A stretch of 59,995 nucleotides of DNA, taken from Bacillota bacterium (GTDB lineage Bacteria > Bacillota > UBA5301). The notes beneath the pieces were generated by a model that was given only the letters and a program-made list of their open reading frames with translations, was not told the origin of the DNA and ran no database searches. How positions within the stretch are numbered: position 1 is the stretch's first letter; each line of letters begins with the position of its first letter. The stretch covers positions 1 to 59,995 of the forward strand of contig JAAYHC010000070.1 of assembly GCA_012735535.1 (NCBI GenBank). Direction: 5' to 3'. Positions 51,070-53,138 of the stretch are shown here, piece by piece. The position numbers and the translations under genes were made by a program.

Positions 51070-51330
51070 TTAAGCGTTCGCAGTATACTTGGTATGAGAC
51101 CAACCGGAGCCACCGCAAACTTCGCAGTTGCCATTGCCGGTCAGACTGTAACCTGAACCTTTGCAAATAGGACATTTGTAGCCTGGTCTCGCAACAAACA
51201 ATGAACCGGCACCGTTACAAATCGGACAGAATCCGTTACCGGCATCGCCAAAGCCTTTGCCTTTACATCTCCGGCAGGTTTTGAGCACGTAATCACCGGA
51301 CACTTTAGCTCGACGTTTGAGGCCAAACAA
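51070..51330 (-). CDS. DnaJ-type zinc-finger-only protein (4x CxxCxGxG)
   Basis: CRRCKGKG, CPICNGAG, CPICKGSG, CEVCGGSG in 86 aa; no J domain. Confidence 0.85.
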   Translation of the reverse strand: MFGLKRRAKVSGDYVLKTCRRCKGKGFGDAGNGFCPICNGAGSLFVARPGYKCPICKGSGYSLTGNGNCEVCGGSGWSHTKYTANA

Positions 51331-51588: not shown

Positions 51589-51951
51589 CTATACTACTTG
51601 CTGATACTCGACATCCGGAACAGCTCTGTCAAATTGCCGCGAAATCTCCGCATGAATCCGGTTTTCTAAGTCGGCCAGCCGACCCGAGAGGCTCATATCG
51701 ATAACGATGTCCCCCAGGTGGATCAACATACCGCCCAAAATCGAGGGGTCGATGATGTTGGTCAGCTCGACCTCTTTACCGGCCAGTTGTTTCAGGATCC
51801 CGCACAATTTCTCTTGTGTTTCCTCATCGATGGGAACCACTGTCTTGACCTTAGCCTTCACCTTGCTCTGGTCAATTTTAACCGTAATACCCCTGTGTGA
51901 CTTGACTATTTGCCCATACTCTCGAGCAATCTTAGCGCGCCACTTCTCCAT
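51589..51951 (-). CDS. Stand-alone F-type ATPase delta (OSCP) C-terminal-domain protein, copy 1
   Basis: KAKVKTVVPIDEETQEKLCGILKQLAGKEVELTNIIDPSILGGMLIHLGDIVIDMSLSGRLADLENRI matches the AtpH C-terminal signature (IDxSxxxGxxIxxGDxVIDxSxxxRLxxL). Start ATG 51951. Confidence 0.85.
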   Translation of the reverse strand: MEKWRAKIAREYGQIVKSHRGITVKIDQSKVKAKVKTVVPIDEETQEKLCGILKQLAGKEVELTNIIDPSILGGMLIHLGDIVIDMSLSGRLADLENRIHAEISRQFDRAVPDVEYQQVV

Positions 51952-52167
51952 TCTGATCCCTCCTATCTTGAACTTGCTGAAACTCACCGATAATAAGCAA
52001 AAAGGGGATTTGTCAACCCCCTCGAATAATAGTACAAATTTTCTTAATGTTTTGCGACGGTCTTAGCGTGGTCTGTGCTGCGATCAAAGCCGGGTTATTA
52101 CTATCGATATTATTATTACCGCATGAGCGTGCGAAATCCTGCCAAGCGAGCGAAACAAGGAGCTTAT

Positions 52168-52530
52168 TTAGGCAATAGTACTAAACGGCGCGATTTCCTG
52201 GTCTTCATTCGTTTGAAACTCTTCGTGAATCCGTTGATGAATGGATTCGGAGAGTTTCTTTAGACGCGAGGCCATACTGAGGTCGATGACCAAATCTGCG
52301 GTCGTAATCACCATACCGGCAATAATGGAAGGATCGATCTTGTTTACGATCCGGACCGGCTTGCCGATCAGGTTGGCTAAAGCGGCAGCTAACTCGGCTT
52401 TGTCCTCTTCGGACATCTTCACTACCGTAAAGACCTTAGCCACCGTGGCATCCCGCGCCCTGAAAAAGTCCGGTGCGTCACTAACAAATCGATTATACTC
52501 CTCAGCCACTCGACTCCGCCATTTTTCCAT
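52168..52530 (-). CDS. Stand-alone F-type ATPase delta (OSCP) C-terminal-domain protein, copy 2
   Basis: VAKVFTVVKMSEEDKAELAAALANLIGKPVRIVNKIDPSIIAGMVITTADLVIDLSMASRLKKLSESI; shares N-terminal MEKWR..(V/I)A.EY with copy 1. Start ATG 52530. Confidence 0.85.
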   Translation of the reverse strand: MEKWRSRVAEEYNRFVSDAPDFFRARDATVAKVFTVVKMSEEDKAELAAALANLIGKPVRIVNKIDPSIIAGMVITTADLVIDLSMASRLKKLSESIHQRIHEEFQTNEDQEIAPFSTIA

Positions 52531-52842
52531 TCCGGACACCCCCTTCCTTCTGGTCCCACCCACGCAAGGGCGGGGAACAAAAAAGCCACAGCTTCTTTCT
52601 GTCTCTGCTGCAGCCGGTGATCCCATTATTCCGCTAAGATAATCCCGATGTTATTGTCAACGCTTTCACAATATATTGATTTCAATACCCTTCCTGTGTT
52701 ATTATTATACATCTAAATATACCGTTTGTAAACAGAAAACCCTGATTTTATGCGTTTTCCCAGCTCCTGGCAGAAAATCGTACGGAAAAACTCGGCTTGT
52801 GTCTGCTAAATAGTCTTTGCGTTCGCAATTTCCGCACAATAA

Positions 52843-52898: not shown

Positions 52899-53057
52899 CT
52901 AGATCGGCTTTTGGACTTTTTGGTTCTCCTTGGCTTCGTGTTGCACTTTGGCTTTGCACAGCTCGCAGACAAAATATTTCTGACCGGAATGACTCAGCTG
53001 CTTAACTCCTTCAACTTTATCCACTTTACCGCAGATGATACATCTTCTCTCTACCAT
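52899..53057 (-). CDS. 52-aa zinc-ribbon protein (DUF2197-like), not in the ORF track
   Basis: Minus-strand translation MVERRCIICGKVDKVEGVKQLSHSGQKYFVCELCKAKVQHEAKENQKVQKPI*; two CxxC pairs; AAGGTG just upstream of the ATG. Confidence 0.75.
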   Translation of the reverse strand: MVERRCIICGKVDKVEGVKQLSHSGQKYFVCELCKAKVQHEAKENQKVQKPI

Positions 53058-53138
53058 CACCTTAGGCCCCCTTGCAATATCATCATAGTAATATTTCCAC
53101 TTTCATAATAGTATTTCCTTTAACGAGAAGCCGCTCGC

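Follow-up and report, generated by a model that had tools for sequence, protein, structure and literature searches.

The window, a 59,995-nucleotide stretch of DNA from a member of the Bacillota, carries upstream of spoIIE two genes for free-standing proteins of 120 amino acids. Both begin with MEKWR, just downstream of the ribosome-binding sites GGAGG / AAGGAAGGGGG, and the local gene order reads nadE, a zinc-ribbon gene, copies 2 and 1, a gene for a zinc protein and spoIIE (Table 1). The initial annotation had described the pair as paralogues matching the C-terminal half of the F-ATPase delta subunit, and HMM searches bear this out well above the Pfam threshold. Against the OSCP family PF00213, copy 1 (P0001) scores 71.6 bits (E 1.1e-19, profile positions 97-171 of 172) and copy 2 (P0002) scores 62.7 bits (E 6.1e-17, positions 99-171 of 172), which places them 49 and 40 bits above the curated cut-off of 22.3 bits. 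Since the match is limited to profile positions ~97-171, both proteins possess only the C-terminal domain (CTD). Scores of 50-51 against TIGR01145, the full-length delta equivalog, fall below its cut-off of 57.5, and both profile coverage and the 120-residue length indicate that the N-terminal bundle, which docks delta on the alpha3beta3 crown, is absent.

AlphaFold2 models, built from the window proteins and related loci only, gave mean pLDDT values of 85.5 for copy 1 and 82.6 for copy 2, with a pTM of 0.54. Both are predicted to consist of a helix (residues 2-18/20), an OSCP CTD and an extended C-terminal helix reaching residue 110-112; in copy 1 these elements span residues 2-20, 30-85 and 88-110. 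Foldseek searches with both models retrieved delta/OSCP chains of the PDB at a best E of about 4e-7, and matches with E < 0.001 were exclusively ATP-synthase chains, the delta/OSCP among them in complex with b. V-ATPase subunit E was matched weakly, at E 0.07-0.11. A search of the PDB with the family profile also found mitochondrial OSCP and bacterial delta chains. By score and by predicted fold, copies 1 and 2 belong to the CTD of the OSCP/delta superfamily.

Table 1. Features of the locus, in window coordinates
Feature	Position	Strand	Basis
86-aa protein with CxxCxGxG zinc repeats	51070..51330	-	DnaJ central domain / Anti-TRAP-like, below cut-off
Copy 1, stand-alone delta/OSCP C-terminal-domain protein	51589..51951	-	PF00213 and AlphaFold2
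Terminator-like hairpin between copy 2 and copy 1	52002..52023	-	GAGGGGGTTGACAAATCCCCTT then TTTTTGC
Copy 2, stand-alone delta/OSCP C-terminal-domain protein	52168..52530	-	PF00213 and AlphaFold2
Hairpin with T-run in the copy-2 leader, possible attenuator	52570..52620 (about)	-	9-pair stem, 14-base loop, T6
Sigma-A-type promoter of copy 2, TTTACA-17-TATAAT	52704..52732	-	11/12 matches
Zinc-ribbon protein like DUF2197, recurrent family neighbor	52899..53060	-	PF09963 E 4.6e-4, just under cut-off

In each of the three genera compared (the window, G001 and G002), copy 2 is preceded by a sigma-A-type promoter whose elements are 17 bases apart and match the consensus at 10-11 of 12 positions; shuffled sequences yielded a comparable promoter in 2-8% of cases. 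Each gene had been thought to be separated by its own hairpins. One terminator-like hairpin does lie between the copies, though the scan count was no higher than in shuffles and is weak evidence alone; the other is instead located between the copy-2 promoter and the copy-2 start codon. A similar arrangement occurs in G002 (L044) and is missing from G001, and the T-run hairpin in these two leaders could be an attenuator. The copy-2 leader has a T-box-like look, but an Rfam scan of the locus including this leader returned nothing at the gathering threshold, and a known leader RNA was set aside.

Rotary machines elsewhere in the genome

The genome containing the window (G000; 1.94 Mb, 98% complete) encodes a canonical atpH with atpA, G, D and C in an atpHAGDC cluster on contig C13. 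This atpH is near-complete, interrupted by the contig start, and the same cluster in G001 (C181) encodes an intact delta of 189 amino acids. The atpA of G000 begins normally, and the stand-alone copies are free ORFs unfused to alpha. An atpIBEF cluster with a single b gene lies on contig C60. The division of F-ATPase genes into atpIBEF and atpHAGDC clusters was observed in the family (G000:C13 and G000:C60, loci L041 and L185; G001:C181, locus L187).

The copies had been reported to have no other ATPase genes nearby. Among the F-ATPase families searched, none was found on the window's contig besides both copies, and matches to PF00006, PF00430 and canonical PF00213 fell on other contigs. That the copies might simply be the missing delta of this genome, an objection foreseen by the initial annotation, is ruled out by the canonical atpH on another contig; neither copy is a sole delta encoded with ATP-synthase genes. 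As a full-length delta is present, the copies are extra. G000 also encodes a V-type ATPase (C19) and FliI, FliH and FliG (C51), named from sequence. With the normal delta, the V-type ATPase and FliI/FliH, the genome thus contains three machines with stalk-like parts, to which the stand-alone proteins are additional.

Distribution, conservation and origin

Three genera of the family have orthologues at this position upstream of spoIIE, and two of the three possess a third copy. In G001 the order is nadE, an HTH regulator, copy 3, zinc ribbon, AAA ATPase, VWA protein, copy 2, copy 1, a DnaJ-type zinc protein and spoIIE; in G002 it is copy 3, AAA, VWA, copy 2, copy 1, zinc protein and spoIIE, with a different gene preceding copy 3. 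The window has neither copy 3 nor the AAA/VWA pair. This pair, whose AAA member is Mg-chelatase-like, lies between copies 3 and 2 at L043:9158-12022 (G001) and L044:9251-12126 (G002); a partnership with it was considered and rejected, as the pair was not found in G000 by a search run without a positive control. The 86-residue CxxCxGxG protein is kept between copy 1 and spoIIE in both G001 and G002. In G006, from another family of the same class, three members reside at two places, one with a longer predicted-helical tail, and two of them adjoin a zinc-ribbon gene of the same kind. The zinc-ribbon neighbor recurs at loci L043 and L046.

Altogether, 11 intact stand-alone copies were found in four genomes, all carriers belonging to a class sample of only seven genomes, the other three of which lack the genes. 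A search of 399 phylum genomes at 1e-20 yielded nothing else except three matches in frames of full delta length, and no other such stand-alone family appeared in samples of 250-399 phylum genomes, consistent with a lineage-specific family. Among the best 80 loci listed from a wider contig search, the G006 record was the only stand-alone of this type, plus one ORF of a Nitrospirota MAG (L086:8052-8291), a 79-residue delta-CTD-only frame that could represent either a further stand-alone or a canonical delta with a frameshift. A short match in G025 proved to be a contig-end fragment nearly identical to the full delta of that genome. Phage or plasmid origin was also discarded: searched with the proteins, the phage and plasmid collections yielded only ordinary delta genes or weak matches of <60% identity that lack annotation. 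A link to sporulation is not supported: spoIIE is present in seven of seven class genomes and the stand-alone genes in four, and the promoters 5′ of copy 2 are of sigma-A type in three genera.

Across the three genera, orthologues are 46-68% identical and ribosome-binding sites are conserved. Values of dN are 0.24-0.29 for copy 1, 0.31-0.52 for copy 2 and 0.27 for copy 3, with dS saturated in all comparisons but one. Saturated dS alongside proteins that remain alike indicates purifying selection across the three genera. Truncation relative to delta, and an origin from the family's own atpH that topology tests do not reject, might suggest functionless, decaying remnants of a duplicated atpH, but we regard this as very improbable given the number of intact copies, the identity of the orthologues at mostly saturated dS, and the conservation of ribosome-binding sites and promoter.

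In a 46-row alignment with canonical deltas, the CTD core residues D66, P67, G72, D83 and S85 are invariant. At column 84, all 11 stand-alones have M/L in place of G; M is also found there in bovine OSCP, which is a true b binder. Columns 76, 87 and 94, where canonical delta commonly has a basic residue, mostly lack one here; together with the change at column 84, these losses imply that the binding surface may have changed.

The initial annotation had correctly taken copies 1 and 2 for two diverged paralogues. A CTD tree, weak at 84 columns, groups all 11 stand-alones in one supported bipartition (96/90) that also holds three long-branch delta-deltaN-alpha fusions and one odd delta, apart from the canonical deltas of the class. 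Monophyly of the 11 was not rejected (AU p 0.49), nor was origin from the family's own atpH, which fitted 13 lnL worse (AU p 0.30). A recent truncation of the genome's own atpH is disfavored by this likelihood difference, though the AU value does not reject it. The N-terminal helix of copy 1 resembles the last N-domain helix of canonical delta (p about 0.001 in three of three orthologues, which are non-independent), whereas copy 2 gave mixed results (p 0.002-0.15) and copy 3 nothing. The MEKWR...EY segment of copy 1 thus looks like a retained last helix of the delta N-terminal domain, and truncation of a delta that kept this linker helix would be the simplest origin. The N-terminal bundle is indeed missing, as had been noted, but its replacement by a wholly new segment is probably incorrect.

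Delta C-terminal domains relocated within ATP synthases

Delta CTDs were also observed in long frames of about 590-650 amino acids, which are N-terminal fusions to AtpA where read. They comprise matches in G027, G070, G171, G195, G086, G218 and G118 and the second matches of G054, G092, G127, G182 and G206 (loci L028, L165-L175, L182, L183 and L186). These fusions are natural delta-deltaN-alpha proteins and candidates for multi-stalk ATP synthases. In G127 the delta CTD sits in a second ATPase operon of a genome that also has a canonical delta. A 290-residue delta in G050 (L184:3692-4564) carries a second CTD appended in frame, within a complete atp operon ordered a, c, b, delta-CTD-CTD, alpha, gamma, beta, epsilon. 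Six PDB entries of the Chloroflexus aurantiacus ATP synthase (9itj and related) contain 12 delta chains of 157 amino acids, a mean of two per entry, which suggests a natural two-stalk enzyme. The atpH of G139 (C65:1043-1539; L180) appears split into an N-half frame (100 aa) and a C-half frame (101 aa), possibly by a frameshift, and a full-length delta is encoded elsewhere in that genome.

The delta CTD of ATP synthase binds b together with one alpha N-terminus. The N-domain contacts the other two alphas; it lies on the F1 symmetry axis and restricts the enzyme to one stalk (PMC6131620; PMC12229609). Where canonical delta is absent, several deltas without this domain might seat on alpha N-termini, attach more than one b2/a stalk and raise the H+/ATP ratio. 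The stand-alones have the same domain content as an engineered deltaN construct whose enzyme carried two to three stalks and reached an H+/ATP of 5.8 (PMC12229609), genomes carry several copies, and natural deltaN-alpha fusions exist in the phylum. We nevertheless consider this reading unlikely by a wide margin: the copies are unfused to alpha, and poor F1 binding by an unfused deltaN was expected by the designers of that construct (PMC12229609); the canonical delta would occupy the crown; and the leftover N-helix is too short to stand in for the N-domain. Equally improbable, in our estimate, is that full-length delta and separately transcribed N-domain-less paralogues together change how many stalks and a subunits an ATP synthase contains, with a corresponding shift in H+/ATP. 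Were stalks added in this way, the proteins would constitute a natural H+/ATP switch, a gear shift so far only engineered.

Candidate partners and known systems

Copies 1 and 2 are probably accessory stalk-binding delta paralogues. A CTD without the N-domain should grip a stalk coiled coil and not dock normally on F1. Under the specific mechanism we propose, to which we assign a probability of roughly 0.36, the proteins would grip a rotary-ATPase stalk coiled coil without F1 docking; the foremost candidate partner is b2 of the F-ATPase in the same cell. Ancient delta paralogues would have shed the F1-docking N-domain and kept the CTD, which in ATP synthase holds b2 and one alpha N-terminus, and the copies would be expressed from their own housekeeping-type promoter beside normal delta. 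Gripping the C-terminal coiled coil of the stalk, b2 first, without seating on the F1 crown, the CTD may thereby cap, hold or regulate free stalks or those under assembly. What the analysis directly supports is the domain make-up of the copies and their predicted fold, their presence beside a full-length delta, their conservation and the conserved promoter motif. The intact CTD core, a fold matching delta/OSCP bound to b, the full-length delta, purifying selection across three genera, the sigma-A-type promoter conserved upstream of copy 2, and the additional or displaced delta CTDs found in ATP synthases of this phylum all favor stalk binding; the lost basic residues, the column 84 change, the distance from atp genes and the three of seven class genomes that manage without copies argue against it.

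Several of these observations would also fit a CTD fold repurposed as a helix-gripping adaptor that has lost its F-ATPase contact and serves the V-type ATPase stalk (E/G), FliH/FliI or an unrelated coiled-coil protein, a tenable alternative short of even odds. Loss of surface basic residues, family-specific columns, the distinctive C-terminal helix extension with the longer tail in one G006 copy, and gene placement away from atp genes point in this direction. FliI/FliH are present in the window's genome, and V-ATPase E is encoded in four of four carriers versus one of three non-carriers, with two E genes in G006. However, the CTD core is wholly conserved, fold matches to V-ATPase E are weak, and the co-occurrence, drawn from seven genomes, is not significant (p about 0.14). 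Summed over this broad class, repurposing for some other partner is about as likely as binding to the b2 stalk, the single most specific mechanism.

The delta N-domain presumably limits an ATP synthase to a single stalk. A conserved natural delta family lacking it and kept beside normal delta would regulate the assembly of stalks, serve as an adaptor to a different machine or switch the stalk number. Any of these would be new, and these small soluble proteins make the question amenable to testing. Relocation of the delta CTD is itself already known, from b-delta fusions, from delta-deltaN-alpha fusions (Acidaminococcus) and from the two-CTD delta seen here in an atp operon; in the open-licence literature, free-standing multi-copy CTD paralogues beside a full-length delta were not found described.

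V-ATPase subunit E and FliH form a class of peripheral-stalk proteins akin to delta. The stand-alones gave no significant match to either in Pfam scans, the predicted fold reaching V-ATPase E only at the weak values given above. With F-type delta/OSCP (PF00213, TIGR01145) they share CTD sequence, predicted fold and the DP..GG / D.S core motif, but they lack the N-terminal F1-docking bundle, have a longer C-terminal helix, carry M/L for G at column 84 with loss of basic residues, and are encoded outside the atp operon beside a full-length delta. The mycobacterial b-delta fusion and the delta-like C-terminus of alternate F0 subunit B (TIGR03321, matched at E 3.6e-4) likewise place a CTD outside its normal architecture; in contrast, the stand-alones have no b part and no transmembrane helix and span about 120 amino acids. 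The delta-deltaN-alpha fusion, engineered in PS3 (PDB 9jc1) and natural in the Acidaminococcus fermentans type (PMC12229609), is similarly a delta minus its N-domain. Its multi-stalk architecture has the CTD fused to the alpha N-terminus, whereas the stand-alones are free proteins, unfused to alpha, that coexist with a canonical delta.
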